From the NCBI GenBank assembly GCA_949130485.1, contig OX422184.1, forward strand, positions 25,899,674-25,963,673: a stretch of DNA of 64,000 nt. Direction: 5' to 3'. A model generated the notes under the pieces. That model was not told where the DNA came from, did not search any database, and saw nothing but the letters and a program-made list of their open reading frames with translations. Source of the DNA: Agelas oroides (Eukaryota > Porifera > Demospongiae > Agelasida > Agelasidae). Both the position numbers and the translations under genes were made by a program. Numbering within the stretch: position 1 is the stretch's first letter; each line of letters opens with the position of its first letter. Shown one piece after another: positions 9,060-62,435 of the stretch.

Positions 9060-9175
9060 TTACTGTCCCCCCCAGACATTATTCACTAGTGAATACCGTC
9101 CCCCCCCCCCCCCGGACATTATTCACTGGTGAATACTGTCCCCCTATAGGACATTATTCACCGGTGAGCTTAGTT
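9060..9175. repeat. Palindromic 'GGACATTATTCAC' repeats, three units
   Basis: Three copies of a near-palindrome, GGACATTATTCAC followed by GTGAATA-type sequence, are separated by C tracts. The same motif recurs at 62309-62435 and 62948-63085. Confidence 0.7.
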
Positions 9176-15568: not shown

Positions 15569-18500
15569 TCACAGCCAACGTATTCTGTGGTCACTGGTTA
15601 CTGACTTGTACTTCTCTGGGAGCCACAGGTGCCTCAATGTCTGGTTGTGTTTGAGGCTGTTAATGAGCTGGTGAACCCCCTCTTCCCCGACTGAGTCATC
15701 ACACAGGGTGAGGTACTCCAGTGATGTGTTGTGTTGTAACATGTCTGACATTGAGGAGGCTCCCTCCACACTAATGGGGTTACGATCCAGGTTCAGATGT
15801 TTCAGAGTTGGGTTCTTGTAGAGTACAGCTGCCAGTTCCACTACACATTCGCTGCTGATGTGGCAGTCTTGCAAGTCCAACTTTGTCAGTGATTTGTTCT
15901 TTACTAACGTTTTGGCTACTGCAGTCGCTCCCTCCACATGCTCTCCAATAAGGTTACGGTTCAAGTTCAGGTATTCAAGTGTTGAGTTCTTGCAGAGTGC
16001 AGCTGCCAGTTTCACACCACCTTCACTGCTGATGTGGCAGTCTTGCAAGTACAAGTCTGTCAGTGTGCTCTTGGAGTGGTCTTTGAGTACTGATGCTAAA
16101 CTGTCCACATTCGCCATGCTAAAGTGAGAGTTTGAAATGTCGAGTATTGTCAGAGTACTGTTGTGATTGAGTCCAGTGATGATGCTGGCTACACTCCCTG
16201 AGGACAAGTTGTTCTGGTCAATGTGTTGAAGTGAGTGAGTTGATTTCAGTAGTTCACACAGAGCCTCACAGTCTGGCACCCCAATCCCAGTCATCCACAG
16301 TGATAGTAGTTTCACTCCACTGCCACAGAGTGCCTTGATCACCTCCACAGCACCACTACTGCCTATTGGGTTGTAACTAAGTGAAAGCTCCTCTAACCTG
16401 GACATTGATGGTACTGCCTTGGCCAACAGGTCACAAGCACTCCCATCCAGTTTGTTTTGACTCAGGTCTAGCACTCTCATGTTCTGTAGGATGTGTGGGG
16501 GGATGTTTACAAATGACTGTATGCTTTTGAAAGTGATGTTATTGCCACTGAAGTGAGCATATGAGATGTGTCCCCTGCATCCAGTTCCCCCAGGGGTAGC
16601 ACATCCCTGGCAGAACAGTTCAAACTTTTCATTGTCAATAGAAGTCATGAAAAAGTGCAGTTTCCAGGGGCAGATGGAATGGGAGATGGCATGACCCGTA
16701 ACATAGTAGTCCAGGGGAGTCCAGGAGTAGTGTGACCTGACAACCATCTCATCTGAACCTAGAGTTCTGGTAGTCATTGAAACGTCTTTTGCTTCAAACA
16801 AAAAGTGAAAATAGTTAAGTTTGGTATCCATCAACCTCATCTTAATGTCTGGGGGTATGTTTCCTAACTTTGTGCGACCAGCCAAGAATCTCATGGTCAT
16901 TTTGAAGTGGCCACTCTTAACATGTTCTTGAAACAGTCTTGTCTGCTCATGTGCAGGGAGTTGTGAGATGTGGATGGAGGCCAAGTATTCTTGAAGGGTC
17001 AAGTGGATGAAGTGGTAGGAGGAGGATCTGCCCACAGTGTACAGTTGAGGGACCTCCTGCATCAGGCCGAGGGGGGCAAACCCAGTGGGAAGGTGTGCCG
17101 CAGAGAAAACCAGCTGTTGCCTGTTCAGTATACCCTCATAGGCCATTCTGCACAGGTCCTGGAATTGCTTGTACACATCGGTGGGGAGGTCACTGAAGGT
17201 GGTGACCTTCAACTGCTGTTTGTGGTATACTGGGTGTGTTGAGAGATGGTCTACCAGGGTCTTGAGGGTAAAGGCAGTAAAGAGTTCAGTCATGGTGGTG
17301 GGAGGGGGTGACTCAGTGTGCTGGTTCCAGCCGAACGCTTCTGCTGCCATCTTCGCATTGAAGGTGGTATACAGTGCTGCTCTGATGGCAGGGGTAGAGA
17401 ACAGGTAGTCCTTGTACTTAATTGGGAGGGATGGGTCTGCTTCTTCCTCAGCTTTGTTCAGATACTGCTCTACTGATGGTAACAGTTTAACATGCTGTGA
17501 GATTTCATCCACACATTTCTCTCTGACATATTTCTTGGCTTTCATGGAGGAGGGGTGGTACTCTTGTCCATCAATGGTAATAGTTTCTATCTTTTGTTCT
17601 AAAAAGAACTCACTGCTGGTGCTTTCAATGGCTACCTGTAAGTCCTCCACAAATAGCTCAGGTATAAGCCAGATGATGGTGATGCAACCTTCTTTGATCT
17701 CTTTCAGCCGGAGGTCAAACTCACGCAGGAAAAATTTGCGAGTAATGACTCCCTTTAATTTCTCAAGGTCTTCCAGGGTGCAGTTGTCCCAGTGATGACC
17801 CACCTTTATGACAAACTCTCTGAGTTCTGTCTCAGGGGGAGTTTGTCCCCTCACTGGCCAGCAGTCAATAAAGTCACAGAGCCTGGTGGCCTTTCGGAAA
17901 GACTGGAGATCATGTTTGTAGGATTCCATCTTGTGCTTCAGGTCTTCACTGCCAAACCGGCTCACAACATGTTCCAAAAGGTCAAAGTTCAGGAAGTCCC
18001 AGTAGTTGCCTAGTCTTGCCCAGAGATTATTGAAAGTCATCTCTTGACCAATGTTCATGAGATGCTTATCTATAAACTCTTGGTGTTCGTGTCTTCGAAA
18101 AACATCAAGTGATACAAGCCGGGCATGAAGGCGATGTACATCAATGCCTTTCGCTACCAGTACTTCATATGTGCACTCCGTTAGTTCCAGGAAACGATCT
18201 TCAAGCTGCTTTACATGTTGGTTGACTGAATGTTTGTCCAGCAAAACTGTAGAGGGGTATAGAGAGTCAATTATTAACTCACACATAGCAGACTTAATAT
18301 AGTAATACGTTAGTCAACATTTGCTAGTCATTTCTGAAGGTATTGAACATGCAGACGGCTAACCAAAATGAATGCATTAAGATACCAGTGGTCATGTAGT
18401 AACAGCTAGGTCTGTTACTATAGTGAAATACCAGTTAGTGCTTGTGAGGGGGTGTGTTCACAGTGACAGGTTGTGTGGTTGCTGGTACCTCTGGACTGGG

Positions 18501-19361
18501 GGTGGGACAGTCTAGAGTGCGAGAGGGTGGTAGACTGGGAGGGCATGGAGTTGTGGCAATGGCCAAAGGCTGGGCAGTAGTAGTCCGCTGTGCAGGTACT
18601 GATGAAACAGGTTTGGGTGAGCAGTACTTGCGTTCCAAATCTGTAGCCAGCTTTGCTTCACCAACTACGTTTAGAGCATCTACAACATTTATCCATTTAT
18701 TAGGGATTGAGGATTTAAGCCATGCTGTAAGGGTTTCTCTAAGACAATCAGAGGGGTCACTGTACTGTTTCATGATAGCATCCAGTGTACCAACACTCAC
18801 TCCTAGCTGCACACCAATGTTGTTCCACTTTGCGCGCACATCGTTTAACTCTTTCATTACCACACCCAAGTCATCAACACTTAGCACTGGTCCTGGGTTG
18901 GTCTCAATGTCTCCACTCAACAACAGCAGTAGAGTCAACACCACACCCACCATCGTACTTCCTAGACCAAAGGGGAGGGTGGTGAGAACATGAGAGACAG
19001 CAGAGTGGGATGAGGTATACGATGGACACCCAATGTTTGACCTCACTACTCTGTCCTGGAGGGCCATGGCTGGTAGCACACTGTCGAGTGAAGGAAGCAC
19101 CAGGGGGGTATGTCTGAAGGTCATGTGACGAGAGTGAACACTCCACTGGTGGATAGGGTTCATGTGGTACATGGTTGTTAGCTGTAAATATTCTACTGCT
19201 AGCCCTAACATTGGTAGTATGAGAAGACACATAGAAACCAGGAGGCTGAGACCAGGAGACACATGACCAAGTTGAGAATGGTGGTAGGTGTACTCTCGTG
19301 GCCTTCGGTAACTCTTTATTTTGTTGGTCTTAACTTTCCGGTGTCCAATACTGATTGGCAT
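15569..19361 (-). CDS. NLR-like gene 1: 2A signal - DEATH - (NACHT deleted) - LRR
   Basis: The 5' block is complement(18435..19361), 308 codons. It has a basic start, a hydrophobic segment (~38-63), a second hydrophobic run (~137-149) leading into SGDIETNPGP (~149-158), a canonical 2A-like ribosome-skipping motif, a DEATH-type domain (~163-247), and then a Pro/Thr-rich linker. The 3' exon is complement(15569..18246). Its acceptor follows a good pyrimidine tract (ccctctacag), and its first residues align with exon 4 of NLR gene 2, phase 1. It carries the pre-NACHT helical region, the NACHT-distal helices (FSAAHLPTGFAPLGL, YHFIHLTLQEYLA) and at least six LRRs. Walker A and B are absent: relative to gene 2 about 200 residues are cleanly missing in frame. 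The phase-1 donor expected at the end of the 5' block is not visible where gene 2 has one, so the two blocks may not splice properly. Expected role: innate immune sensing, now possibly ATP-independent. Could be a functional variant or an early pseudogene. Confidence 0.8.
18888..18923 (-). other. 2A-like ribosome-skipping motif of NLR gene 1
   Basis: It encodes LLLSGDIETNPGP-type sequence, matching the consensus D(V/I)ExNPGP. The predicted skip is between G157 and P158 of the 5' block. From published work on sea urchin NLRs (as I recall it), such an N-terminal 2A also acts as a secretion signal when skipping fails. Confidence 0.9.
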
Positions 19362-19516
19362 CTGGAGGGGAGGAAATGAGGGAAGCTATTTATGCAGATA
19401 TCGTCTATGGCAGAAAGAGCTCGCCGCGCACCCGAAGTGACATGCTGCCAAGGACGCGTTATTACAAAGGAAACCTGGTGGCCACTAGGTAGTCTGTAGG
19501 TATAGCCCACCTTGCA

Positions 19517-27788: not shown

Positions 27789-30700
27789 CTAAGTTATAAT
27801 GTTCCTCGTAGTCCAGATTCTTTGTGATTGGAGTATAGTTATTCTGCAGATGGTCTTTAAGAAGTTCCACGTGTTTTTCCGGGGACATCTTGTTAGTGTT
27901 TGAAAAAGAGCTTTAAATCCCTGGAGGTTCAGAAAGCCCCGGCTTCCAACTTCAAGTGTGATAACTTCCATGGTGAACCCATTGGCCTCCCCTGCATCAA
28001 CCAGGTCCTGGTATTTATCCGACTTGCGAGTTTGTGCCTGAACGTAGTTGGTCTCGTAGCAGACAGTCAGTTCTACCAGGGTGGCTGATTGCAGAGTCTG
28101 GCTCCATAGTACAATGTCTGGTCGCAGGTCAGTAGGGGTGATCATGAGAGGAAAGTTGTAGGGGAGGTCAGGGAGGTCAGCACTCATCTCGAAAGACTCG
28201 GGGAGGTGGTCTCTCACAAAGTCAGCAATCACTTGCAGCACACTGTCATGTCTAGTATTGTACCTCCGAAGCTCTAGTGCAGCTTTACAGTGATTGAGGA
28301 CATGCAAGAGGGTCTGCCTGCCTCTACAGAGTTTGCACTGGCTTGACAGACCTTCCTTCCTCCTCCAAACTGCCAGGTTAGCATTGTGTGGGAGGGTATC
28401 TTGGGCAGAATTTAAGGCAAACTTGAGGCAATCTGGTGGTAGCTGCTGCACTGTTTCAGACCATAAGGTCGCTGCATCATCTTCCACAAGATGGTGGAGT
28501 TCACCCTGGCTTGACAGACCCTTGGCATGATCTAGTCGCTCTGCCATTTCTACAGCTTTCACTGCTTTCTTCACTTGGCCTGTAAGGGCTTTCCTGCTAG
28601 CACCAGGGTCGGCTACCATGACCTCTCGAGCCACAAGCATGGGCTTAAACTGCAGCCTTTGCTGGTTCTCTTCCTTCTGTATCCTGAGTTTGGCTACGTG
28701 CTGGGTGATTGGATCTTGGGAGGTTAAGAGCTGGCAGGCATGGCTGACGTGGATCTTCTGGTAGAGGCCAGAGATTGATGGTAGGTCCAAGCCTCCATTT
28801 GGTTTCGGCAAGTAAAGTCGGGATGGGTCTGCAGAGCGTGCCAGTCCTGACCACCTCTTGAGGTAGCGTGTAGCAGTTGCCTCAAGACAGGACTTAATCC
28901 ATGAGATGGGGAGGTCTGAAATTCCCAAGTCCCAGAGAATTCTGGGACATATGGCGGCTCTGTACCGCAACAACTTCTGGTTACGGGTGACTGGGACAGT
29001 GTCCACCTTGTCCAGGAGCGAGGTTAGCTTCAAATGGAGATCCTCCCTGGTTTGGTTGGAGTTCTTGGGGACTTGGATGAATGCTCCGAGGAACTTGATG
29101 GCATTGTTCCCAATGGAGGGGATGCGTTCTCCTTGCAACATAAGGGATGGGTCGTATGTTTTCCCAGATGAGGCTTGGATTGCAAGTGAATGACACTTTG
29201 GCACTTTTGCTTTCATGCCAGACCACTGGAGCCACCTTTCCACACAGTTGAGGAGCTGTTGGCAACTGGAGGGGCCGTCGGCAATGAGGCATGTATCATC
29301 TGCATACTGCAGGATGTTGGTGGACCGAGAGCTCTTGGAGAACTTGTAGCCCAGATGTTGCTGGTGGTCGATAGAATCAGCAAGGGTGGCCATCACTGTG
29401 TTGAAGATTATAACAGACAGGGGGTCTCCCTGGTATACTCCAATCTGGAGTGGGATAGGGTTGGTTGTCCAGGATTGTGTGGTGACAACTGCACTTAGGT
29501 TGGAGTACAGGCTGGCTACCACATCTCTGAAACAAGAGGGGGCATGGTAATGCTGGAGGGTGAAATCTATCAAATCGTGGTGGACGCTACCATAAGCATT
29601 GGCTAGGTCCAGCCAGCAGACGGTGATGGATTTGTGCTTTTGTTTGGATTCTTGTATGGCTCCTAGCAGCTTGTGAAACTGTTCTGTGCAGCCAGGTATG
29701 TTCCTCATGAAGGCTTTCTGAATGTTGGTATTGAGGAAGCGATTTGCAAGCATGTATTCCAGCCACCTGTTCTTTAGGATTGATGTGAACACCTTACCCA
29801 CACAGGAGGTGAGGGCAATTGGCCGAAAATTTCCAGGCTCTTCAGGTTTACTCAAAGCAGCCTCCTTGGGGATTAGCCGCACTATCCCCTGTTTCCAGGC
29901 GGAAGGGACTGTGGCTGATACCCAACAGGAGTTGTAGAGCTCTGTCAGAGTGGCAAGTAGAGATGGGCATTTCTTCAACACTCTGTAGGAGACTTGGTCA
30001 ATTGGGCTGGGGGAAGATGAGCTTCTGGTGTTTTTGATGACCCGCAGCACTTCCTCAGTTGCAATTGGCTCATCATCAAACTCATAGGCTGGGGCTGGAG
30101 GATCTGGGAGCCACTCAGGGCGCTGAAAGGATTTAGGGGCACTACTATAGACGTTTGTGAAGAAGCTTTCTGCTGTCTGGGAGCTGAAGGCTGGAGTAGT
30201 GTTAGTGGGTCTGTCATCATCTAGGATCTTGGCTGCAAATCGCCACAATGACTTGGCACATTCGCTTCGGGCTTTTCTGGCTTCCAGGTTAGCTCTGGAC
30301 CTTAGAGACACCTTCTGTGCCTTGCTGTGCATCCTGATAAGCTTGTGGAATTGCTTAGCTATCTCCTGGATCACTAGCTCATCCTGGCCTTCTCTCCTTG
30401 CTCTTCTGAGGTCCCTCCTGGCCTCATTTCTCATCCTCTTCAGCTTCTTGAGGGATCGGTTGTGACTTCTGGGTTTGGGTTGTTTGGAACGTTTGGCCTT
30501 ATCCATTACACCATACTTGGAGGCAAAGTGGTTGTAGATGCCTTCACACAGGATCCTGCTCTTGTCATCCACGCTCTGTGCTTCAGCAACTGCTGGAATG
30601 ATGGATTCAGCCAATTGAGAGTCATCATCTCTCCACTCTTCATCAGTTTTGGGAGTCTTGAAAGGAGGAAGTAGCTCAAATACTGGCAGTTGGTTGTCCA

Positions 30701-31052
30701 AGACAGAGGTGTGAATTTCCTGACTAGTTCTGGTCTCTTCTGTTTGGTTGAAATCTGGAGGCTGGAACTGGTTAGCTTGCATAGGCTGGAGTAGAATGCT
30801 GCTCTTGCAGGTGGCACTGTTCTTAAGGTGAGTGTCCAATCTGATAAACAGTTTGCCACAACTAGGACAAGGTTTCTTCCTGGAGTTGCTAGCTCTGTTG
30901 TTGAGGGTCTTCTGGGAAAGATAGATGGTATAATCTCTTCCAGCTCTCTGTGGACAGCGTGGCAGGTGGTTGCCAACTCTCTTGAAGGAACAGTGACAGA
31001 AAGGGCAGCAGTTCTGGGAAGATGGATGAGGGTCTTCAGGGCTGGCTGGCAT
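27789..31052 (-). CDS. R2/NeSL-type non-LTR retrotransposon protein, intact 1087-aa ORF
   Basis: Single open frame. The N-terminus has two zinc-finger-like motifs (CPFC...H-x3-C at 16-33 and CPSC...H-x6-C at 62-82), expected to bind target DNA. A reverse-transcriptase domain spans ~340-680, with WLDLANAYGSVHH (motif A, ~480), GVYQGDPLSVIIFN (motif B) and YADDT (motif C, ~582). A CCHC knuckle (CKLC...H-x4-C, ~904) precedes a restriction-like endonuclease (RPDIVLW, VELTVCYE, then K...YQDL; ~975-1010). That order (ZnF-RT-CCHC-REL) is the R2/NeSL/Hero layout, which usually inserts at specific targets by target-primed reverse transcription. All catalytic residues appear present and there is no stop, so this copy could encode active protein. 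I see no 28S rDNA nearby, so the target is not the classical R2 site. Confidence 0.92.
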   Translation of the reverse strand: MPASPEDPHPSSQNCCPFCHCSFKRVGNHLPRCPQRAGRDYTIYLSQKTLNNRASNSRKKPCPSCGKLFIRLDTHLKNSATCKSSILLQPMQANQFQPPDFNQTEETRTSQEIHTSVLDNQLPVFELLPPFKTPKTDEEWRDDDSQLAESIIPAVAEAQSVDDKSRILCEGIYNHFASKYGVMDKAKRSKQPKPRSHNRSLKKLKRMRNEARRDLRRARREGQDELVIQEIAKQFHKLIRMHSKAQKVSLRSRANLEARKARSECAKSLWRFAAKILDDDRPTNTTPAFSSQTAESFFTNVYSSAPKSFQRPEWLPDPPAPAYEFDDEPIATEEVLRVIKNTRSSSSPSPIDQVSYRVLKKCPSLLATLTELYNSCWVSATVPSAWKQGIVRLIPKEAALSKPEEPGNFRPIALTSCVGKVFTSILKNRWLEYMLANRFLNTNIQKAFMRNIPGCTEQFHKLLGAIQESKQKHKSITVCWLDLANAYGSVHHDLIDFTLQHYHAPSCFRDVVASLYSNLSAVVTTQSWTTNPIPLQIGVYQGDPLSVIIFNTVMATLADSIDHQQHLGYKFSKSSRSTNILQYADDTCLIADGPSSCQQLLNCVERWLQWSGMKAKVPKCHSLAIQASSGKTYDPSLMLQGERIPSIGNNAIKFLGAFIQVPKNSNQTREDLHLKLTSLLDKVDTVPVTRNQKLLRYRAAICPRILWDLGISDLPISWIKSCLEATATRYLKRWSGLARSADPSRLYLPKPNGGLDLPSISGLYQKIHVSHACQLLTSQDPITQHVAKLRIQKEENQQRLQFKPMLVAREVMVADPGASRKALTGQVKKAVKAVEMAERLDHAKGLSSQGELHHLVEDDAATLWSETVQQLPPDCLKFALNSAQDTLPHNANLAVWRRKEGLSSQCKLCRGRQTLLHVLNHCKAALELRRYNTRHDSVLQVIADFVRDHLPESFEMSADLPDLPYNFPLMITPTDLRPDIVLWSQTLQSATLVELTVCYETNYVQAQTRKSDKYQDLVDAGEANGFTMEVITLEVGSRGFLNLQGFKALFQTLTRCPRKNTWNFLKTICRITILQSQRIWTTRNIIT

Positions 31053-31245
31053 CTTGAGGTGTGAGGCAGTCTGGAACTCGCAAAGTAGTACAGCTATTGA
31101 GCTAGGGCTTGTCCAGGTTATTCTCTACCACTAGCACAGCTGCTACAACTAGGCAATAACAGGTTATAAAGCCTAGTGGCTAGACTATCCTCCTTTCAAG
31201 AGCAGAGCAACTTTTCTAAACTTCAATTATATTTTCACACCTCTC

Positions 31246-31482: not shown

Positions 31483-34400
31483 CTAATGGCGCAGTACTTC
31501 CCATGGTCCATCTGGATGGGTTTGAGGGAGACACTAACAAAGAGGAGGGAGAGAAGGAAAAGCAGAGTGAAGAGTACAAGGGTGAGGAAGGAAGAGTCAG
31601 GAGAGAGGACGAGTCAGGAGAGAGGACGAGAAGAAGTTGAAGGCACCGGAGCTCAATTGGTAAGGACCGTTTTATTTTGCCATTCTTGTTTATCCATATA
31701 CTTCACCTCTCCTCCCTCCCTCCCTCCCTCTCCTCCCTCTCTCCTCTCTCCCTCCTTCCCTTCCCCCCTCTCCTTCCTCCCTCTCTCCTCCCTCCCTTCC
31801 TCCCTCTCTCCTCCCTCCCTCCAGGCCCCCACTGCTCGTGCACGACCACTGCTATGCCTCTGGTGTACAGGTACAAGGAGACATGCCCCAGGACTCACTG
31901 GGCAGATGTGAGCCGGAGCAGCACCACACAAAGGATGGTAGACGGTGTGTGCTGTGTTCAGTGGAGGGAGACGCAGAGCCAATGGTAAGCACCATGTCTT
32001 GTCCCAATTCTAATTGTTCTGCACCATTTCATGATGTCTTGTTGCTGGTCCTGTAGGAGGCTGGGCGGCTCTTGCCATGTGCAGTGGACGAGTGGGTGCA
32101 TGTCAACTGTGCCGTGTGGTCGGCAGAGGTGTATGAGGAGTGCTCTGGGATTCTGTGCTGTGTGCACGCGGCCATCAGCAGGGGTGTGCGACGGGTAGGC
32201 TGCTAACTACAGTAATTTTGAGCTCAATATATCTCACATATCTGTAGGAGTCTCCTGTAGACATCAATCCATCATTATTCGAAACACTGTATTGAGATTT
32301 TTTCTCTTTCTTAAAAGCTTATATACATCAATTTTATTCCTGCCTACAAATTAATAGCTTCAAGAATTGTTGTTGCCAAGTGCAGCAAAGTTTAGCAAGG
32401 CTTGTTGTATCATACCATACAAGTTGCCAACTCTTGCAACATCTGGCATAGTGTGACATCCAGTGCTGAATTTTCAGTTGAGGATGACTTAGTAGACACG
32501 TTTACGCCCTAGCTTCCTCCTGTTATTTTTGATCGTAGTGTACACACGCTTTTTTAAACCAAGCTGTTCTCTTCCCCTCCAGCGTTGTGATGTGTGTCGT
32601 GAGGTGGGTGCGGCCGTGGGGTGTTGTGCAAGCTGGTGCACAGCCAACTACCACTTTCAGTGTGCCCGCAAGGCCAAGTGTCTCTTCCTCGAGAACAAGG
32701 AGGTCTACTGCGAGCAACACACCAGCCTCACAGAGGGCAAGGTACAGCATTTGATGGTCACTATGTTCCTTCCCTTCCTTGTTACATCCCTTCCTGAGAG
32801 ATTGTCGGTAGCAATTGAGTTGTAGCCACTCATGTGACTTCTCCGGATCCATGTACATCATCGTTTTACCCAGTAACAATTAAGTTGCAGCTACCCACAA
32901 CCTGGCAACATTTCACTCTTTTTCACTCTCCCCCTTCCTCCCTTCCTCCACTCCCCTCCTCCCCCTCCTCTCCCACTCCACTCCCTCCCTTCCTCCCTCT
33001 CTCCCCCCCTCCTCCCCCCCTCTCCCTTTACCAGGCTGTCTTGACTGATGCTGATATTGCTGTGTTACGGTGTGTGATAGTGGAGGTTCATCCAGACAGA
33101 ACCAGTCGCAAGATCCCACGCTCCCTTCAACCGGCCAAGACCAGCATTCAGATTGGTAAGATCTCGTCTCCTCGTGTGTTTGTTCCAGGGTCGCCGTGAG
33201 CTTAGCGATAGCGACCTTGTTTGTCTCCTCGTGTGTTTGTTCCAGGGTCGCTGTGATCTTAGCGACCTTGTTCGTCTCCTCATGTGTTCCAGGGTCGCCG
33301 TGAGCTTAGCGACCTTGTTCGTCTCCTCGTGTGTTTGTTCCAGGGTCGCCGTGAGCTTAGCGACCTTGTTCGTCTCCTCGTGTGTTTGTTCCAGGGTCGC
33401 CGTGAGCTTAGCGACCTTGTTCGTCTCCTCGTGTGTTTGTTCCAGGGTCGCCGTGAGCTTAGCGACCTTGTTCGTCTCCTCGTGTGTTTGTTCCAGGGTC
33501 GCCGTGAGCTTAGCGACCTTGTTCGTCTCCTCGTGTGTTTATTCCAGGGTCGCCGTGAGCTTAGCGACCTTGTTCGTCTCCGCGTGTGTTTGTTCCAGGG
33601 TCGCCGTGAGCTTAGCGACCTTGTTCGTCTCCGCGTGTGTTTGTTCCAGGGTCGCCGTGAGCTTAGCGACCTTGTTCGTCTCCGCGTGTGTTTGTTCCAG
33701 GGTCGCCGTGAGCTTAGCGACCTTGTTCGTCTCCGCGTGTGTTTGTTCCAGGGTCGCTGTGATCTTAGCGACCTTGTTCGTCTCCTCGTGTGTTTGTTCC
33801 AGGGTCGCTGTGAGCTCAGCGACCTTGTTCGTCTCCGCGTGTGTTTGTTCCAGGGTCGCTGTGATCTTAGCGACCTTGTTCGTCTCCTCGTGTGTTTGTT
33901 CCAGGGTCGCTGTGATCTTAGCGACCTTGTTCGTCTCCTCGTGTGTTTGTTCCAGGGTCGCTGTGAGCTTAGCGACCTTGTTCGTCTCCTCGTGTGTTTG
34001 TTCCAGGGTCGCTGTGATCTTAGCGACCTTGTTCGTCTCCTCGTGTGTTTGTTCCAGGGTCGCTGTGAGCTCAGCGACCTTGTTCGTCTCCTCGTGTGTT
34101 TGTTCCAGGGTCGCTGTGAGCTTAGCGACCTTGTTGATCTCGTGTGTTTGTTCCAGGGTCGCTGTGAGTTTAGCGACCTTGTTCGTCTCCTCGTGTGTTT
34201 GTTCCAGGGTAGCTGTGAGCTTAGCGACCTTGTTCGTCTCCGCGTGTGTTTGTTCCAGGGTCGCTGTGAGCTTAGCGACCTTGTTCGTCTCCTCGTGTGT
34301 TTGTTCCAGGGTCGCTGTGAGCTTAGCGACCTTGTTCGTCTCCGCGTGTGTTTGTTCCAGGGTCGCTGTGAGCTTAGCGACCTTGTTCGTCTCCGCGTGT

Positions 34401-37400
34401 GTTTGTTCCAGGGTCGCTGTGATCTTAGCGACCTTGTTCGTCTCCTCGTGTGTTTGTTCCAGGGTCGCTGTGAGCTCAGCGACCTTGTTCGTCTCCTCGT
34501 GTGTTTGTTCCAGGGTCGCTGTGAGCTTAGCGACCTTGTTGATCTCGTGTGTTTGTTCCAGGGTCGCTGTGAGTTTAGCGACCTTGTTCGTCTCCTCGTG
34601 TGTTTGTTCCAGGGTCGCTGTGAGCTCAGCGACCTTGTTCGTCTCCTCGTGTGTTTGTTCCAGGGTAGCTGTGAGCTTAGCGACCTTGTTTGTCTCCTCG
34701 TGTGTTTGTTCCAGGGTAGCTGTGAGCTTAGCGACCTTGTTCGTCTCCGCGTGTGTTTGTTCCAGGGTCGCTGTGATCTTAGCGACCTTGTTCGTCTCCT
34801 CGTGTGTTTGTTCCAGGGTCGCTGTGATCTTAGCGACCTTGTTCGTCTCCTCGTGTGTTTGTTCCAGGGTCGCTGTGAGCTTAGCGACCTTGTTCGTCTC
34901 CTCGTGTGTTTGTTCCAGGGTCGCTGTGATCTTAGCGACCTTGTTCGTCTCCTCGTGTGTTTGTTCCAGGGTCGCTGTGAGCTCAGCGACCTTGTTCGTC
35001 TCCTCGTGTGTTTGTTCCAGGGTCGCTGTGAGCTTAGCGACCTTGTTGATCTCGTGTGTTTGTTCCAGGGTCGCTGTGAGTTTAGCGACCTTGTTCGTCT
35101 CCTCGTGTGTTTGTTCCAGGGTAGCTGTGAGCTTAGCGACCTTGTTCGTCTCCTCGTGTGTTTGTTCCAGGGTCGCTGTGAGCTTAGCGACCTTGTTCGT
35201 CTCCTCGTGTGTTTGTTCCAGGGTCGCTGTGAGCTTAGCGACCTTGTTCGTCTCCGCGTGTGTTTGTTCCAGGGTCGCTGTGAGCTTAGCGACCTTGTTC
35301 GTCTCCGCGTGTGTTTGTTCCAGGGTCGCTGTGATCTTAGCGACCTTGTTCGTCTCCTCGTGTGTTTGTTCCAGGGTCGCTGTGATCTTAGCGACCTTGT
35401 TCGTCTCCTCGTGTGTTTGTTCCAGGGTAGCTGTGAGCTTAGCGACCTTGTTCGTCTCCGCGTGTGTTTGTTCCAGGGTCGCTGTGAGCTTAGCGACCTT
35501 GTTCGTCTCCTCGTGTGTTTGTTCCAGGGTCGCTGTGAGCTTAGCGACCTTGTTCGTCTCCGCGTGTGTTTGTTCCAGGGTCGCTGTGAGCTTAGCGACC
35601 TTGTTCGTCTCCGCGTGTGTTTGTTCCAGGGTCGCTGTGATCTTAGCGACCTTGTTCGTCTCCTCGTGTGTTTGTTCCAGGGTCGCTGTGAGCTCAGCGA
35701 CCTTGTTCGTCTCCTCGTGTGTTTGTTCCAGGGTCGCTGTGAGCTTAGCGACCTTGTTGATCTCGTGTGTTTGTTCCAGGGTCGCTGTGAGTTTAGCGAC
35801 CTTGTTCGTCTCCTCGTGTGTTTGTTCCAGGGTAGCTGTGAGCTTAGCGACCTTGTTTGTCTCCTCGTGTGTTTGTTCCAGGGTCGCTGTGAGCTTAGCG
35901 ACCTTGTTCGTCTCCGCGTGTGTTTGTTCCAGGGTCGCTGTGATCTTAGCGACCTTGTTCGTCTCCTCGTGTGTTTGTTCCAGGGTCGCTGTGAGCTTAG
36001 CGACCTTGTTCGTCTCCTCGTGTGTTTGTTCCAGGGTCGCTGTGAGCTTAGCGACCTTGTTCGTCTCCTCGTGTGTTTGTTCCAGGGTCGCTGTGATCTT
36101 AGCGACCTTGTTCGTCTCCTCGTGTGTTTGTTCCAGGGTCGCTGTGAGCTCAGCGACCTTGTTCGTCTCCTCGTGTGTTTGTTCCAGGGTCGCTGTGAGC
36201 TTAGCGACCTTGTTGATCTCGTGTGTTTGTTCCAGGGTCGCTGTGAGTTTAGCGACCTTGTTCGTCTCCTCGTGTGTTTGTTCCAGGGTAGCTGTGAGCT
36301 TAGCGACCTTGTTCGTCTCCTCGTGTGTTTGTTCCAGGGTCGCTGTGAGCTTAGCGACCTTGTTCGTCTCCTCGTGTGTTTGTTCCAGGGTCGCTGTGAG
36401 CTTAGCGACCTTGTTCGTCTCCGCGTGTGTTTGTTCCAGGGTCGCTGTGAGCTTAGCGACCTTGTTCGTCTCCGCGTGTGTTTGTTCCAGGGTCGCTGTG
36501 ATCTTAGCGACCTTGTTCGTCTCCTCGTGTGTTTGTTCCAGGGTCGCTGTGATCTTAGCGACCTTGTTCGTCTCCTCGTGTGTTTGTTCCAGGGTCGCTG
36601 TGAGCTTAGCGACCTTGTTCGTCTCCTCGTGTGTTTGTTCCAGGGTCGCTGTGAGCTTAGCGACCTTGTTCGTCTCCTCGTGTGTTTGTTCCAGGGTCGC
36701 TGTGAGCTTAGCGACCTTGTTCGTCTCCTCGTGTGTTTGTTCCAGGGTCGCTGTGATCTTAGCGACCTTGTTCGTCTCCTCGTGTGTTTGTCCCAGGGTC
36801 GCTGTGATCTTAGCGACCTTGTTCGTCTCCTCGTGTGTTTGTCCCAGGGTCGCTGTGAGCTTAGCGACCTTGTTCGTCTCCTCGTGTGTTTGTTCCAGGG
36901 TCGCTGTGAGCTCAGCGACCTTGTTCGTCTCCTCGTGTGTTTGTTCCAGGGTCGCTGTGAGCTTAGCGACCTTGTTCGTCTCCTCGTGTGTTTGTTCCAG
37001 GGTCGCTGTGATCTTAGCGACCTTGTTCGTCTCCTCGTGTGTTTGTCCCAGGGTCGCTGTGATCTTAGCGACCTTGTTCGTCTCCTCGTGTGTTTGTCCC
37101 AGGGTCGCTGTGAGCTCAGCGACCTTGTTCGTCTCCTCGTGTGTTTGTTCCAGGGTCGCTGTGAGCTCAGCGACCTTGTTCGTCTCCTCGTGTGTTTGTT
37201 CCAGGGTCGCTGTGAGCTTAGCGACCTTGTTCGTCTCCTCGTGTGTTTGTTCCAGGGTCGCTGTGATCTTAGCGACCTTGTTCGTCTCCTCGTGTGTTTG
37301 TCCCAGGGTCGCTGTGAGCTCAGCGACCTTGTTCGTCTCCTCGTGTGTTTGTTCCAGGGTCGCTGTGAGCTTAGCGACCTTGTTCGTCTCCTCGTGTGTT

Positions 37401-40400
37401 TGTTCCAGGGTCGCTGTGATCTTAGCGACCTTGTTCGTCTCCTCGTGTGTTTGTCCCAGGGTCGCTGTGAGCTCAGCGACCTTGTTCGTCTCCTCGTGTG
37501 TTTGTTCCAGGGTCGCTGTGAGCTCAGCGACCTTGTTCGTCTCCTCGTGTGTTTGTTCCAGGGTCGCTGTGAGCTTAGCGACCTTGTTCGTCTCCTCGTG
37601 TGTTTGTTCCAGGGTCGCTGTGATCTTAGCGACCTTGTTCGTCTCCTCGTGTGTTTGTCCCAGGGTCGCTGTGATCTTAGCGACCTTGTTCGTCTCCTCG
37701 TGTGTTTGTCCCAGGGTCGCTGTGAGCTTAGCGACCTTGTTCGTCTCCTCGTGTGTTTGTTCCAGGGTCGCTGTGATCTTAGCGACCTTGTTCGTCTCCT
37801 CGTGTGTTTGTCCCAGGGTCGCTGTGATCTTAGCGACCTTGTTCGTCTCCTCGTGTGTTTGTCCCAGGGTCGCTGTGAGCTTAGCGACCTTGTTCGTCTC
37901 CTCGTGTTCTTGTTCCAGGGTCGCTGTGAGCTTAGCGACCTTGTTCGTCTCCTCGTGTGTTTGTTCCAGGGTCACTGTGTGTGCAGGGTCTGGGCTCTCT
38001 CACGGAACTCTCAGAGATGCCAAACTTGCTGCTGCCAGACCAGTACAGGTACTGCTGTAGCCCTCGTGTGTGGGGAGGAGAGAAGAGAATGAAGTTTATA
38101 CTGTGTGAAGTTTCCTCCTCGTTCGCAGGTCCCTCCCTGGCTCTTTGGCCACATGATTACGATTGTATGATGGGGTTTAGTTGGGTAGGAACTTGCGCTC
38201 TTAGAACTTTTTCTCCCTCTGATGATGGGGAAGAAAGAGTGTAGGGGGTACACTTGAAATTTTCACTGTACTGAAGGGGAAAAGGATGTACATGTAGTTC
38301 ACTTTTTCTCCCCATCTGTAAGGTAGTATGCCCCGGCTTATTTGCCCCATCATAGAGGGAGAGAAAGTTCAAAAGACTGAGAAATATTAAGGCAGATTTT
38401 AGTTCAAGGTTCATGATTTGGTTGTGTGCGATCTCTGCAGGTGTCGCTGTGACTTCTGGAGTGTGCGTTGTCCCTCTGTCCCGTGTACCTACACTCTCAT
38501 ATTTAGTGCTCCTGAGGAGGAGGACTGGTGGACCAGCCACGCCCCCTCAATGGAGGGTACCACGGTGGAAGCTCCAGACCTCGGCTGTCCCTGTGTGACA
38601 GTCGGGGAGCTGACCACCACCTGGGACACCCTCCGCCACCGTGAGAGGTAAACCAGGGTTCTGAAACAAACTGGACACACTAGGAACTTTAATTGACTAA
38701 ACTTAGTAATTTTCACAAGCACATTTAGACACGGGTGCAGTGCAGTGTGAGAGTCTGTACGAGACACAAATTTGAGCATGGGTATGCATTATATGATACA
38801 GAGAAAGGTACATACCCCTGTAACACAAGATGTTCTAGCCTCGTTCCCAGGTTTTGATCGCTTGCAGTATGCAATAATGGAGGGTTACATAACATTTTGC
38901 AAGCTGTGATGTACATGTAGGTTAAGATTCAGGTTAAGGGTTAGCCCAATTTTCCCGCTATACGGCATATATGACAACATTTTGCAAGCTGTGATTCAGG
39001 TTAAGGGTTAACTAGAATGAGTGTCTACCTTAGAGATTGTTGCAGTGTTTGACAAAACTTCAAATTTCAGTCTTGGCATATTCTGTCTGTTGTTTATGCA
39101 GGAGACTCTCCAGCCCGCCACCACCAGCCGTGAAACCTGCCCTGGCACTGGACGGAATCACTAGTCTAAGATTTGTACCAGTAGTACAACACTCTCAGCT
39201 GGTCCTGTACGGCATCCCCGCCTCCCCTCCCACCACTGACGATCACAAGCTATCTCACTTCCCAAACGCAGAAGCAATCAGAAACTTTCGTATTCCCAAG
39301 CGTCGACCACCGCCCTCCTCTCCTTCCTCCGCTCTCCTCCTCTCCTCCCCTCTTCCTTCCCAGGACAGCTCAGATGCTGTACAGCGATCGTGTTGTGTGA
39401 GGCGGTTCCATGCAGGTCTCCCCTCCAACCCTCACAGCCTCACCTTCACCCTCTCCACCTCCCAGGGGGAGCAGTGGTCCAGCAACAACCTCGAAGGTCA
39501 GAGGTCAATGTGTGTCTTTGTCATATTGTGCAGACAACCGACTACTATGATAACATTGCAGCATTTTGATTGGTTGAGTGGAAATACTATTTGTCATCAT
39601 ACGAATTGCTATATTGTATGTATATCAGTATATTTTCAACAAACTGACTAATCTCGTTCCCAGGCACCTCCCAACTTTCGGTCTGTTTTTATACATTTTG
39701 CAACTGAAAAAAGCCGAGGGGGCCGGAGATGGGTGGGGGGTCTTAGAACCAAGATGTATGTAGTAGTAGAGGAGAGCAAAGCTACATGTGAAGTCTTTGG
39801 CTCTCTCCTTCAAATTAAAGCCCACCATGCTGACTAGGCCCCTTCCCTGCAGCCTGCACTGGTATTGTATGTCTTCTCATCTGCAGAGTTGTGGTGTTCA
39901 GTGATTGCTGAGCTTCAGCTGCAGAGAGCCAAACTAGACCTGCCCTTCGTCCCCTACACTGGTAAGTAAGAGGTGTACGTGTGTAGTGTGCTTGGGTCCG
40001 GCACCAACTACCTGGTCTCTTCCCTCTGTGCAGGTACAGACGTCTACCGTCAGTTTGGCCTCCGTCATCCTCTGGTGGTCCAACTGTTGGAGCAGCTGCC
40101 CAACTCTGAGAAGTGCAGTGGATATCACTTTACCTACCACCATCCTGAGAAGCTCTCCAGCTGGCAGGCAACCGTAAGCTCATTCATGGCCTGCCCTTCT
40201 CACTGTGTTTTACTCCATTTTCCTACCCTTCCTGGCCCTCTCATCCTTCCCTCCTCTGCTTCATTCCCCCTCCTTCCCACCTCCCCTCTCTTCCTCTCAT
40301 CCTTCCCTCCTCTGCTTCATTCCCCCTCCTTCCCACCTCCCCTCTCTTCCTCTCATCCTTCCCTCCTCTGCTTCATTCCATCCTCCTTCTCCCCTCTTCC

Positions 40401-41256
40401 TGCTCCTTTCTCCCCTTCAGAGAGCAGCATTCAACCCCAGTGGCAGTGCTAGGACTGAGCCATTTTGTGGGTAAGTCCCAAGCTTCTCTCTCGTAGCTTC
40501 TCTCTCGTAGCTTCTCTCTCGTAGCTTCTCTCTCGTAGCTTCTCTCTTATAGCTTCTCTCTCATAGCTTCTCTCTCATGGCTTCTCTCTCACATTGCTTG
40601 TTGCTTCCCAAGTCAAGTGCCTCTCCTTAAGTTGAAGATTGGCCTTTGGGCTGAACAGTCTTGGAGGTAAAATACTTTTTATATTTGTGCTTTTCTTCTC
40701 CAGTGTTCGCTCTCCACGGGACATGTTTAGTTTCCTGACGTCCTCCTTCCGCCCTCTCAAACCTGAGGTAGACACTGCGGCACTAGAGGCTGCAATGGCA
40801 GTAGCCGAGAATGCTGGAGTTACCAAGTGAGTTGTGTACACACGTGGCAGAAATCAAACAATTGCATATTTCAATCGTGTTACCACGTTCAAAGCACTGT
40901 AGAACTTCTGTAGAACTTCTGCAAAGAACTTTAAAATGGTAACACTATTGCCGTATGGAACAGAATAATGTTCGAGTTGTTCTCAGCAGTGATGTACTTG
41001 TGTACAATCTGTGAGTTGAGTGTCCAATGTGTTGCTCCACCCAGGATGCAGTCAGCATTGGATCTGCCGATGGCTATGCGCTACCGTAACCTTCAAAAGA
41101 CGTACAAGCAACATGTGCGTGTGTTCCAGTCGGGCATCCATGGTCTAGGGCTGTACTGCATTAGGGAGATTGAGCCTGGGGAGATGGTGATTGAATATGC
41201 TGGCACCGTCATCCGATCTGTGCTGACTGACAAGCGGGAAAAACTTTATGAGAGCA

Positions 41257-41354
<98 letters not shown>

Positions 41355-43439: not shown

Positions 43440-45250
43440 GCAGCCAGCAGCTAGTCTCGCGTAGCCAGACTCTCGCAGGGAGGTATTGTGTGGTACATAT
43501 ATCAGCTTTGGTATCTGTTGTCCTGTAGGCCATGTCAATTGCAATAATGGTCTTAGCTCGTCTTGCACAGTAGACCGAGGGAAGCATCGTGCATCAGGAA
43601 GGCTTCCATGATACAGAAAGCTGGAGTTGGTTTGATCTTGCTTGTGAGTGATATATGATATCCTTTGCCCTGTAGATCATAAGGTTGAGGAGTGCAGGAG
43701 TGTGTTCTACTAGGGGCTACACTGACAAGTACAGTGGACAGACAGGTGCAGGTGAGATCATGTGACCATCATGTGACTGTTGTGTGGTAGTCTCAGAACC
43801 AGACTAAAAATCAAATAGGACAGTCTGGTAAATCGACTTGCCAGTGTACCAGTGACTGGGGAGGAAGTGTACACTGCACCGGTATGCAGACACGCTTCTG
43901 ATTGGTTTTGATTAGCATTCTTACAAGTGTTTATTGGAAATGCAAACTGCACGTGAGCAAGTGGTCATATTTTACTTCCTTGTGGAAAGTTCTGAAGTGT
44001 AAAGAGTAGAATGCTTCTGCAAGTGTCTGGTTCTGCCGAAGCTCTACTGGTGCAGCAATTATTAAAAATCCTAACATTCTGCAGTGTACATTTCCACTCT
44101 AGCCCATTTATCAGACGCTCTTTTCCATTTTGGGGAGACTTTGGGAATGAGACTTCACTAGCTAGAGAAGCTGGCATACCGTAGAATTTCTCTAATAATT
44201 AGTACACCTCAATATGACAATTCACATACACGTAAAAATGAAATGATTAGTCTAATATTCGTACAGCAGAAACACAAGCATAGTGTGATGGCATTTCTGA
44301 CATCCAGAAAACGTGAACAAATGCTATTTTGTGGCTGTTGGTGTCAACCATATGGCCATGCAGGCACAATGTTGAAATTCACTGGGGTTCCATCCATGTT
44401 CCCTGCAAAGCCTCACAAGATTAAAGTCAATGTACAGCTTGCCATAAAGTCACTTATTGGCCTCACAAGATTAAAGTCAATGTACAGCTTGCCATAAAGT
44501 CACTTATTGGCCTCACAAGATTAAAGTCAATGTACAGCTTGCCATAAAGTCACTTATTGGCCTCACAAGATTAAAGTCAATGTACAGCTTGCCATAAAGT
44601 CACTTATTGGCCTCACAAGATTAAAGTCAATGTACAGCTTGCCATAAAGTCACTTATTGGCGTCACAAGATTAAAGTCAATGTACAGCTTGCCATAAAGT
44701 CACTTATTGGCCTCACAAGATTAAAGTCAATGTACAGCTTGCCATAAAGTCACTTATTGGCCTCACAAGATTAAAGTCAATGTACAGCTTGCCATAAAGT
44801 CACTTATTGGCCTCACAAGATTAAAGTCAATGTACAGCTTGCCATAAAGTCACTTATTGGCCTCACAAGATTAAAGTCAATGTACAGCTTGCCATAAAGT
44901 CACTTATTGGCCTCACAAGATTAAAGTCAATGTACAGCTTGCCATAAAGCACTTATTGGTGTCAACTGAAGGTATTAGTGTAACTGATGTAGATGATGTA
45001 AAAGATAGCTAAGTTGTGCAAAACTGGTGATGGCTCAGAAATGTGCGGCTAACTTGGTGTACTGTTGATTTCTTTGAACACTGAAGTGGTGCATTTCACT
45101 GACTTCCATAAGTGGATCAGATAGGATTTGATGAGTCTTGTAGTTGATTCAATTAACTTCACTTTACGAACTAATTCAATTAACACCAATTGAACTATGA
45201 AGAACAAACAAATCTCAATGGTCAAAGGGAGTTGAAATCAACAGTATGCA
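43440..45250 (+). repeat. Dispersed repeat, copy B (with internal expansion)
   Basis: Similar to copy A (9171-9800) in its first ~700 bp and to copy C (59422-60345) over most of its length, including 'gctattttgtggctgttggt', 'aagatagctaagttgtgc' and 'cagaaatgtgcggct'. It holds the 11-copy array at 44411-44959. No intact coding frame. The family is unknown. Confidence 0.78.
44411..44959. repeat. 50-bp minisatellite, 11 almost identical copies
   Basis: Unit cctcacaagattaaagtcaa, tgtacagcttgccataaagt, cacttattgg. The starts run from 44411 to 44911 in exact 50-bp steps, with one substitution (44662) and a single-base deletion in the last copy. Copy C at ~60061 has a single, diverged unit. Confidence 0.97.
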
Positions 45251-52606: not shown

Positions 52607-55600
52607 TCACAGCCAATGTATTCTGTGGTCACTGGTTTGTGACTTGTACTCCTCTGGCAGCCGCAGTTCCCTCAATGTCTGGTTGTGTTTGAGGCTGTTA
52701 ATGAGCTGGCGAACCCCCTTTTCCCCAACTGAGTCATCACGCAGGTAGAGGAACCTCAGTGATGTGTTGTGTTGTAACATGTCTGACATTGAGGAGGCTC
52801 CCTCCACACCAATGGGGTTATGATACAGGTTCAGATGTTTCAGAGTTGAGTTCTTGCAGAGTGCAGCTGCCAGTTCCACTGCACCTTCACTGCTGATGTG
52901 GCAGTCTTGCAACACCAACCTTGTCAGTGTGCACTTGGAGATGTCTTTGAGTATTGATGCTAAACTGTCCACATTTGCCATATTGCTAAAGTGAGAGTTT
53001 GAAATGTCCAGTTTTGTCAGAGAACTGTTGTGACTGAGTCCAGTGATGATGCTGGCTACACTCTCTGAGGACAAGTTGTTCAGTTGAATGTCAAGGTGTT
53101 GAAGTGAGTGACTTGACTTCAGTAGTTCACACAGTGCCTCACAGTCTGGCACCCCAATCCCAGTGTTGTACAGCAACAGTTGTTTCACTCGACTGTCACA
53201 GAGTGCCTTGATCACCTCCACAGCACCACCACTGCCTACTGAGTTGTAATCAAGCCAAAGCTCCTCTAACTCGGACATTGATGGTACTGCATTGGCCAGT
53301 AGGTCACATGCAGTCCCATCTAGTTTGTTGTGACTCAGTGCTAGCACTCTCACGTTCTGTAGCATGTGTGGGGGGATGTTTATAAATGACTGTATGCTTT
53401 TCGAGGTGAGGCCATTAAAACTGAACTCAGCATGTGAGATGTGGCCCCTGCATCCAGTTTGCCCGGGGGCAGCACATCCCTGGCAAAACAGTTCAAACTT
53501 CTCATCATCAATGGAAGTGCGCAGAAAGTACAGTCTCCAGGAGCAGTTAGAATGAGAGATGGCATGTCCTGTCACATAGTAGTCCAGAGGAGTCCAGGAG
53601 TAGTCTGACTGGACATGCATCTCACCTGAACCCAGAGTTCTGGTAGTCATTGAAATTTCTTTAGCTTCAAACAAAAAGTGAAAATTGGTACCTTTCATAA
53701 TGTCTGGGGGTATGTTTGCTAACTTTGTACAACCAGCCAAGAATCTCATGGTCATTTTGAAGTGGCCACTCTTAACATGTTCTTGAAACAGTCTTGTCTG
53801 CTCATGTGCAGGGAGTTGTGAGATGTGGACTGCAGCCAAGTATTCCTGAAGGGTCAAGTGGATGAAGTGGTAGGAGGAGGCTCTGTCCTCAATGTACAGT
53901 TGAGGGACCTCCTGCATCAGGCCGAGGGGAGCAAACCCAGTGGGAAGGTTGGCTGCAGAGAAAACCAGCTGTTGCCTATTCAGTATACCCTCATAGGCCA
54001 TTCTGCACAGCCCCTGGAATTGCTTGTACACATCTGTGGGGAGGTCACTGAAGGTGGTGACCTCCAACTGCTGTTTGTGGGCCACTGGGTGTGTTGAGAG
54101 ATGGTCTACCAGGGTCTTGAGGGTAAAGGCAGTAAAGAGTTCTGTCATAGTGGTGGGAGGGGGTGACTCAGTGTGCTGGCTCCAGGTAAACACTTCTGCT
54201 GCCATCTTTGCTGTGACGGGTGTGTACATGGCTGCCCTGATTACAGGATTTGATGAGAGGTAGTCAGTGAATTTGGCAGCAAATGAACTAGGCTGTGCTT
54301 CAGCTTCAGCTTTGCTGATGTAATGTTCAATCTGGTCTTTTGCAGATGTCAGGACCTCCACATGCTGGGTGATTCGATGTTCATATTTCTTTCTAAGATG
54401 CTCACTGGCCCAGGGTCTGCTTGTGATAAACACAGTTGCAAGAGGTAGGATTCTACCATGAATGAGGTCAAGGAACACTGAGGCCTTCTGTCGTGGTTCA
54501 TGATCTAGTTCATCCCATGCCTCCAGCCAGATGGCCACTCCCTGGCCCTGGTTGCTGGTGACCTCCTGGACCACTGCCTGCTGGAGCTCTGAGTTTGGGT
54601 GGTAGAAGAGGTCTGAGAGAGTCTTGGCTGCTTTGAGGTTGTTGTCTCGCAGTGGGAGGAGGAGGAGCAGGGAATGGTCCTGCAGAATCTCACCCCTGCC
54701 CCATTTTCTGCAGAACTCCCAGCTGAAGGTGGTTTTGCCCACACCAGGGGCACCCTCTATCAGAACAAGATTCTGTTGGGGATGACTTGAGAGTTTGCCA
54801 ACTTCTTCAAATTTCATTGGAGACTTCTTATAGTACTCAATGTCAAGGGAACCAACATCGTCCATATCCCCTCGTAAGTACCGTCTTGTGAACTCATCTA
54901 TGCTGACTCTCTCTTTCTCAATCCTGGCTAGTTTGAAGGGGAGGAGTTTTTCTGGGGTGGGGGGGCCAATGCCCACTGGACGCTGCTCAGAGTTGTACAG
55001 ATCCCTCAGGTAGTCACTGTACTTTTTGACAGCGGTGAGGTAGACGTCCTGACCATCAATGGTCACCGCATCGATGCCGTGTTTCTTGAAGAAATTTGTC
55101 TCAATGTTCGCCAGGTTTTGCTGCAGCAGTGTGGCAATGGAGGGAGAGGTCAGCCATGTGACACAGACACAGCCCTCTATAGTCTTTTGGAGAAGAATGT
55201 CATATTTTGGAAGGAAGAACCTTTGAACCAGAGCTGTTTTGAACAACTCCACATCTTCCAGTGTGCACTGGGACCAGTCATGCTTCATTTTGACAACCAC
55301 TTCCTTGAGATGGTCTTCTGGTGGTTTCTCGTCCCTGCATGGCCAGTTTTTGACGAAGTCACAAAGCCGAGTTGTTTGCTTGAATATGGACAGTTCAAGA
55401 ATATAGTGCTGCATTTGCTGTTTCAAACATTCAGTTCCGCATTTATTGACAACATGTTCCAAGAGACCATAGTTCAGAAAGTCCCAGTAGAGGTTCAGAA
55501 TGGACCAGGTGCTCTCAAAGGTCACTGGTGGTGGAATATTGATCAACTTTTCTTCAATAAAGCTTCGATGCTGGTTGCGGGCTGATACTGGCAGGTATGT

Positions 55601-58122: not shown

Positions 58123-58490
58123 CTGGAGGGAGACAAAGGGAACTGAGGAAGCTAAACTGAACTAATTTCCAAGTAAGGACGCGCGTACTGGCGTTTAGCT
58201 AGCCTGGTCTTCGAGTCGTTATCGTCTCCAGGATTTGCGCACTAACCTCCTCTGACGGACCCTGAGAACGAGGCTGACTGCTAACGGTGAAGCAATGCAA
58301 ATGTAGGCGTAGCCTTCTGAATGTTTACAAGTCATTGGAATGAAGTTTTTGCTGTGTAGGAGCGGCTTGTACTTTGCGCTTAGTACTAGTCTCGTGCCTA
58401 GACCCACCCAGCTCACACGAGCTGGGTGGGGTTTGGGTTTGTGCAAACCATCGTGTCGCACTTGCCCCCGCCCGAACAATAGTTTGTGCG

Positions 58491-62308: not shown

Positions 62309-62435
62309 TCGGAGTGAATAATGTCCCCCCGTGAATAATGTCCCCCCGGACATTATTCACTAGTGAATATTGTCCCCCCGGACATTATTCACCGGTGAAT
62401 AATGTCCCCTCTAGTGAATAATGTCCCCCCTCGTA
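62309..62435. repeat. Palindromic 'GGACATTATTCAC' cluster, left
   Basis: About four units of GTGAATAATGTCC or its complement, spaced by C-rich tracts. Confidence 0.8.

Follow-up and report, generated by a model that had tools for sequence, protein, structure and literature searches.

How an intron can come to consist almost entirely of copies of its own 3′ splice site, and which of these copies then serves as the acceptor, are the questions raised by a KMT2-like gene in the sponge Agelas oroides. The gene lies in a stretch of 64,000 nucleotides (assembly GCA_949130485.1, contig OX422184.1, positions 25,899,674 to 25,963,673), which we call the window and in which all positions below are counted; it is part of the contig denoted C2 in a genome of 259 Mb. 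The intron in question (33156..37969, + strand, 4814 nt) is filled by a 51-bp tandem repeat whose unit carries a pyrimidine-rich tract and an acceptor. The reading that we favor, with a probability of about 0.7, is that of a hypervariable intronic minisatellite that was born at the 3′ splice site, whose last acceptor would be used and of which long arrays would be tolerated.

An intron filled with copies of its acceptor

Tandem Repeats Finder (TRF) delineated the array at 33164..37979 (+ strand), with a period of 51 bp, 94.7 copies, 96% matches and a score of 8738. The typical unit consists of a pyrimidine-rich tract followed by TTCCAG and GGTCGCTGTGA. The true donor of the intron, GTAAGA, is located at 33156..33161. 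Parsing of the units showed a first segment of 33 nt that ends with the AG of the first decoy acceptor (33187..33188), followed by 94 units of 51 bp (87 units), 48 bp (5), 57 bp (1) or 47 bp (1), up to the AG of the terminal acceptor at 37968..37969. The acceptor words thus number 95 including the true one (85 TTCCAG and 10 TCCCAG), with the AG intact in all of them. The preliminary description of this DNA had proposed an intron built from tandem copies of its own 3′ splice site, presenting about 94 decoy acceptors. The TRF array and the parsed words bear this out, except that the 94 decoys come in addition to the true acceptor, and that the array starts 8 nt into the intron, occupies almost all of it and extends 10 nt into the next exon.

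The tract contains 12 to 14 pyrimidines out of 17 across the 95 acceptors, the terminal one having 13. Seven bases past the AG, mostly GGTCGCT, a donor-like word is present in all 94 units: GTGAGC in 63 and GTGATC in 26, the two forms noted earlier, and GTGAGT, a third form, in 5. The 26 GTGATC words have no G at position +5. The units fall into 17 types, and a block of 11 units is repeated 23 units further on, indicating that unit blocks duplicate. Among the 86 internal units of 51 bp, 40 of the 51 positions are fully invariant.

The host gene is KMT2-like

We rebuilt a gene model of six exons, all on the + strand, from splice sites and reading frame. Exons e1 (31825..31984), e2 (32057..32194) and e3 (32583..32741) encode the extended PHD (ePHD) region from its start to its end, as delimited by Pfam PF13832. 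Exon e4 (33035..33155), upstream of the array intron, ends in ATT/G (phase 1). Exon e5 (37970..38048, 79 nt), in which FYRN starts, begins with GGTCACTGTG and is homologous there to the repeat unit, and e6 (38441..38647) continues FYRN. Exons e4 and e5 join in frame, ATT/G plus GG TCA CTG giving IGSL, and the six joined exons encode 287 residues without a stop. Two Pfam domains score over their cut-offs in this sequence, PF13832 (ePHD-like, 5.7e-8) and PF05964 (FYRN, 1.1e-5), and a search of the PDB yielded a KMT2D match (E value 2.8e-28) over residues 32 to 237, spanning the e4-e5-e6 joins. The position of the intron at 33156-37969, and that of its true acceptor at 37969, can thus be regarded as secure.

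Further downstream, an exon with the first part of a SET domain (41043..41258, + strand, edges approximate) remained under the Pfam cut-off but matched KMT2B (1.5e-25) and KMT2A (2.4e-25) best. ePHD, FYRN and SET are thus present in the KMT2 order, and the FYRN domain, the KMT2D match and the SET exon agree with the initial assignment to a KMT2-family gene whose array precedes the first FYRN exon. The window copy may be a C-terminal KMT2 fragment.

Other pyrimidine tracts of the gene are also repeat-rich. One C/T-rich tandem repeat, at 31706-31822, runs right up to the acceptor AG of e1, and another one, at 32926-33026, stops about 6 nt short of that of e4.

The array occupies one intron of an amplified gene

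The unit was found at no fewer than 10 further places in the genome, which is a lower bound because the search scores the best candidates only. All 11 represent the same intron in the same gene family. Exon e4 was detected in the same 11 places and none beyond, and the same exons flank the array at all ten other places, showing that a single gene was amplified and that the array sits in one of its introns. In nine of the ten other copies, e4 and e5 share 93 to 100% identity with those of the window. When e4-e6 were used in a protein search (E value up to 10), pieces of the 11 copies and one weak hit (0.84) were returned; an ordinary KMT2 gene elsewhere in the genome was not revealed by this search. 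The unit was absent from 10 of 10 control regions of 9.9 kb each at hand-picked positions. Other minisatellites (period 10-100, at least 5 copies) occurred in 4 of these regions; minisatellites are thus common in this genome, and the 51-bp one was not met in the controls.

We considered an introner-like mobile element, as suggested by the presence of the unit at other places with an identical 3′ end. Such elements form near-identical introns in unrelated genes. Here, all 11 occurrences found among the best candidates scored are the same intron of the same family and none lies in the 10 controls, and we rejected this candidate.

The gene copies are located toward contig ends. Nine of the 11 arrays lie less than 0.4 Mb from an end, that of the window at about 233 kb from the end of C2, and the other two at 0.54 and 1.31 Mb on contig C5; five arrays are on contig C1. 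TTAGGG telomere repeats are present at three of the four contig ends examined (C2 right, C3 left and C5 left), and no telomere repeat was found within the first 800 bases of C1.

A search with the SET exon revealed 18 similar copies and one distant hit. Ten of the 18 belong to copies that carry e4 and eight do not; four of these eight were fetched (4.5-5.5 kb each), and neither the repeat unit nor any match to e4, e5 or e6 was seen in them. Conversely, one gene copy, L018, has e4 and e5 and no SET match. Sixteen of the 18 SET exons form three clusters (C1, 45-229 kb; C2, 25.94-26.02 Mb; C3, 128-166 kb), each on a single strand with neighbors about 16-51 kb apart, and the remaining two are on C5. 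The clusters show the pattern of a KMT2-like gene amplified in tandem close to contig ends. In two SET exon copies, L042 and L043, the sequence upstream of SET matches stretches of the window that bear 2A-like words (about 72-75% identity) and the fetched stretch has no FYRN exon, which places these SET exons in other duplicated blocks.

Pooled ratios of nonsynonymous to synonymous differences (pN/pS) were 0.22 for e1-e6 (15 pairs of 6 copies, two of them with a stop) and 0.45 for e4-e6 (28 pairs of 8 copies), the pairs being non-independent in both cases. The gene family seems to have been under constraint during part of its history.

Copy number varies from 1 to 95 within one genome

The number of acceptor words differs widely between the copies: 95 in the window, 52 in L010, 25 in L011, 17 in L009, 12 in L013, 11 in L012, 10 in L014, 8-9 in L015 (one unit being degenerate), 2 each in L016 and L017, and 1 in L018. 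Copy number had been put forward as a natural quantitative variable, and it is one, with 1 to 95 words across 11 gene copies of a single genome. Over 1267 bp comprising e5 and downstream sequence, L009 and L010 show 99.7% identity, yet they have 17 and 52 words, respectively. Similarly, the flanks of the window and L015 arrays are 98.3% identical, yet the counts are 95 and 9. Repeat number thus changes much faster than sequence, and judging from these comparisons the array behaves as a hypervariable minisatellite. The order of the variant units B, C and D near the 5′ end is common to the window and L011, which points to the descent of both arrays from a common one.

The five copies whose e1-e6 frame is open have 95, 25, 12, 11 and 2 words, and broken or partial copies have 52, 17, 10, 8-9, 2 and 1. 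Even among the former, L012 (11 words) has a stop in its SET match, and in L016 (2 words) the base before the e5 donor is changed. As open and broken frames are both found with long and short arrays, a required function of the array is not suggested. The AG is intact in 145 of 145 words of the five copies with open e1-e6 and in 60 of 91 words of the other six. Nearly all losses are one AT variant (29 of 52 words in L010, and one in L009), and the loss in L015 is one poorly parsed unit. We drew no conclusion on selection for the AG, since nearly all losses perhaps represent one event.

Which acceptor is used

The 94 internal acceptors of the window closely resemble the terminal one, and no feature of the acceptor itself (AG, tract and branch point examined) marks the last copy. 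The downstream context differs: only the last acceptor opens an exon, of 79 nt, that is bounded by a donor on the other side. General splicing knowledge suggests that this acceptor is most likely the partner of the donor at 33156, selected by exon definition, and that the 94 internal acceptors would be mostly silent.

We determined what would follow if a decoy were used. The 10 arrays have 225 internal acceptor words, 194 of which retain the AG, and in every case joining e4 to the word leads to a stop after at most five residues. In the window, the stop comes after at most three residues for 94 of 94 decoys, at the fourth codon for 87 and at the second for 7. The frame of the retained intron also stops, at 33199 (open reading frame [ORF] 32819-33199). 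Any use of a decoy would thus give an early stop, and the message would presumably be degraded. With decoys mostly silent and their use leading to a dead end, long arrays would be tolerated rather than selected. Use of the last acceptor and tolerance of the others is the likeliest outcome on the sequence evidence.

The donor-like words were scored with human donor frequencies. On this scale the true donors of e1 to e6 score 5.1, 2.5, 0.1, 3.4, 0.0 and 2.5, and the decoy donors of the window 0.6 (53 words), −3.4 (26), −0.8 (10) and 1.9 (5); for example, GCT/GTGAGC scores 0.6 and GCT/GTGATC −3.4, versus 3.4 for the true e4 donor. Fifty-eight of the 94 decoy donors outscore the two poorest true donors, those of e3 and e5. 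The 7-base micro-exons envisaged in the preliminary description are possible on paper, but the decoy donors score low and 7 bases would shift the frame. The arrangement also differs from that of recursive splice sites, in which an acceptor abuts a donor (AG/GT), as 7 bases separate the AG and the donor-like word in the window.

Two candidate marks of the terminal acceptor were rejected. A yUnAy branch-point word is present in 8 of 11 terminal units and 19 of 225 internal ones (Fisher p 1.4e-6, the units not being independent). However, a branch point kept in the terminal unit only does not account for the window, whose terminal unit has no such word, and thus nothing at the branch point marks its last copy. 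The consensus unit also contains a GGTCGCT/AGCGACC stem, with a predicted fold of −13.6 kcal/mol, that might hide the decoys. For the eight last window acceptors, the predicted probability of being unpaired at positions +1 to +7 was 0.00-0.03 for the seven internal ones versus 0.48 for the terminal one. Nevertheless, the AG is predicted to be paired in all eight, including the terminal one (0.02 unpaired), and at stem positions 4 and 7 the window has variants that disrupt pairing with no matching change opposite. The hairpin is therefore no more than a lead.

A probable duplication across the intron-exon junction

The other gene copies provide clues to the origin of the array. The L018 intron is 60 nt long with a single acceptor. 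In L009 and L010, the first segment of the array also has 60 nt and the same build, and the other eight arrays start with 33 nt, as if they had the 60-nt form minus 27 nt. The longest word common to the first segment and the start of e5 in L009 and L010 is CACTGTG, at a lag of 51; in L018, the longest word common to the intron and the start of e5 is ACTGTG, at the same lag. In the window, the exonic CACTGTG, the proposed microhomology partner, is found at 37973..37979 (+ strand).

An ancestral 60-nt intron would have had CACTGTG near its start and would have been followed by an exon beginning with GGTCACTGTG, placing the two words 51 bp apart. Tandem duplication between them would have copied the rest of the intron, the acceptor and 10 exon bases. 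This model explains why the unit contains an acceptor plus 10 exon bases, and why GTGAGC comes next. That word would then be old intron sequence beside CACTGTG and not a selected donor. Among the 225 later units of all arrays, 13 are identical to the unit predicted in this way from L009 and 169 match it with no more than two mismatches, 15 being of another length; the second unit of L009 is one base off the prediction. Thus, the array was probably born by tandem duplication across the 3′ splice-site junction. As the 11 copies with their 1 to 95 acceptor words and the repeated blocks show, it then grew and shrank while the gene was copied among regions close to chromosome ends, presumably through unequal exchange or slippage that involved units singly and in blocks. 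A simple route from splice site to satellite would thus be offered by a short direct repeat that spans an intron-exon junction.

Alternative explanations

Several observations weigh against a birth at the splice site followed by use of the last acceptor. The argument from exon definition is weakened by the low score of the e5 donor, GTACTG (about 0), which the commonest decoy donor exceeds (0.6), and the terminal units of L011 and L015, like that of the window, have no perfect yUnAy. The unit predicted from L018 differs from that predicted from L009 at 5 of 51 bases, and the first segment of L009 may have been homogenized with its array, which would make its fit to the units non-independent. 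Mononucleotide shuffles produce a shared 7-mer in about 5% of cases, although the match at lag 51 is more specific. Finally, the order from one unit to many is unrooted, and L018, a gene fragment, could be a contracted array.

The decoys might be partly used, giving stop-containing transcripts, such that more copies would mean less productive KMT2-like mRNA and the array would act as a splicing brake tuned by copy number. The intact AG in 95 of 95 window words and throughout the five copies with open e1-e6 is in line with this, as is the quick stop after every internal acceptor word. In addition, a report on human ABCA7 links the length of a donor-bearing variable number tandem repeat (VNTR) to splicing, with retention of one unit shifting the frame (PMC5954066). 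However, the invariance of the AG is not special given the many invariant positions of the unit, and copy number does not track the intactness of the frame. The AG losses of L010, a broken copy, maybe reflect one mutation that spread through the array. We consider such a brake unlikely. That the self-copied acceptor is a dosage device proper, with up to 94 stop-giving decoys and copy number setting the productive mRNA of each KMT2-like gene, appears quite unlikely; if true, gain or loss of repeats would retune a family of chromatin regulators within a few generations. The role of the array might also lie at the DNA level, with a recombination-prone minisatellite near chromosome ends promoting exchange and copying among gene copies and its position at a splice site being incidental. 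The proximity of nine of the 11 arrays to contig ends, the telomere repeats at three of the four ends and the clustering of 16 of the 18 SET exons on three contigs are all consistent with this idea. Nevertheless, the eight SET-bearing copies with no e4 match have multiplied as well, and the four that were fetched showed no array. The array was thus not needed for the spread, and we find this role very unlikely.

Long tandem arrays are often mis-sized in assemblies, and the length of this one might be an artefact. Its 94 units are nevertheless of 17 types and four lengths (47, 48, 51 and 57 bp) with repeated multi-unit blocks, and related arrays, with 2 to 52 acceptor words, are present elsewhere in the genome in nine of the ten other copies of the intron, making a wrong length highly improbable. 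We also rejected the array as coding sequence. Its frames are open over 1,609 and 1,659 amino acids on the + strand and 1,486 and 1,563 on the − strand, but whichever of the six frames is read, no more than 3-4 of the 11 variants of the unit are synonymous, and the true e4 frame is closed at 33199. Taken together, the evidence indicates a structure that is real, and unusual but understandable as a minisatellite that originated over a 3′ splice site.

Other features of the window

An ORF of 1111 amino acids at 27789-31124 (− strand), by its translation a putative reverse transcriptase of a long interspersed nuclear element (LINE), lies between minisatellites and e1 and may mark the 5′ limit of the window gene copy. 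Translations of the ORFs at 18435-19385 (−) and 57658-58161 (−) contain the putative 2A-like words SGDIETNPGP and SGDIEMNPGP, and these ORFs adjoin large ones that look like NACHT/LRR proteins (15569-18313 and 52607-55771, both −), also as read from translations. Palindromic GTGAATAATGTCCCCCC / GGGGGGACATTATTCAC repeats at 9067-9144, 62314-62430 and 62950-63078 resemble the ends of a small inverted-repeat element. A 50-bp minisatellite at 44410-44959, with 11 copies and 99% matches, is probably young.

Comparison with known splice-site minisatellites

Choice among near-equal acceptors is usually studied with few competing sites. Here, the intron exists within one genome in versions that have anywhere from 1 to 95 acceptor words, a natural test of choice among near-identical splice signals. 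Any wrong choice would run into an early stop. The scaling of choice with decoy number should be measurable in transcribed copies.

The array has the characteristics of a splice-site-bearing intronic minisatellite: its unit, within the range of 10-100 bp, includes and repeats the true splice site, and its copy number varies among the 11 gene copies. We found no earlier report of a minisatellite that repeats an acceptor in the literature searched, of which coverage was partial, so that absence is not proven. Turri et al. (1995; cited in PMC4526556) reportedly described a minisatellite of IFI6 (6-16/G1P3) whose units provide multiple donor sites, some of them used. IFI6 thus resembles the sponge gene in that minisatellite units supply splice sites; these are donors, whereas in the sponge gene acceptors fill the intron. 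CeRep25B of Caenorhabditis elegans is a palindromic, mostly intronic minisatellite associated with genes that undergo multiple alternative splicing (PMC4039745). The likeness lies in this intronic location and the tie to alternatively spliced genes. In the part of the paper available, CeRep25B is discussed as carrying regulatory motifs rather than as repeating a splice site, and it forms chromosomal clusters and is found in several genes.

Together with IFI6, the nearest parallel found is the VNTR in intron 18 of human ABCA7, whose first two bases are those of the exon 18 donor. It comprises about 12 to 427 copies of 25 bp, its length affects splicing, and a frameshift results when one unit is retained (PMC5954066). 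Both are intronic VNTRs that start at a splice site and carry this site in their unit. In ABCA7, the donor is repeated and a single locus varies between people. In contrast, the true site in the sponge unit is an acceptor, repeated every 51 bp together with 10 exon bases, in 11 gene copies of one genome. By its sequence organization, the sponge array is thus the acceptor-side mirror of the donor-repeating minisatellites of ABCA7 and IFI6.

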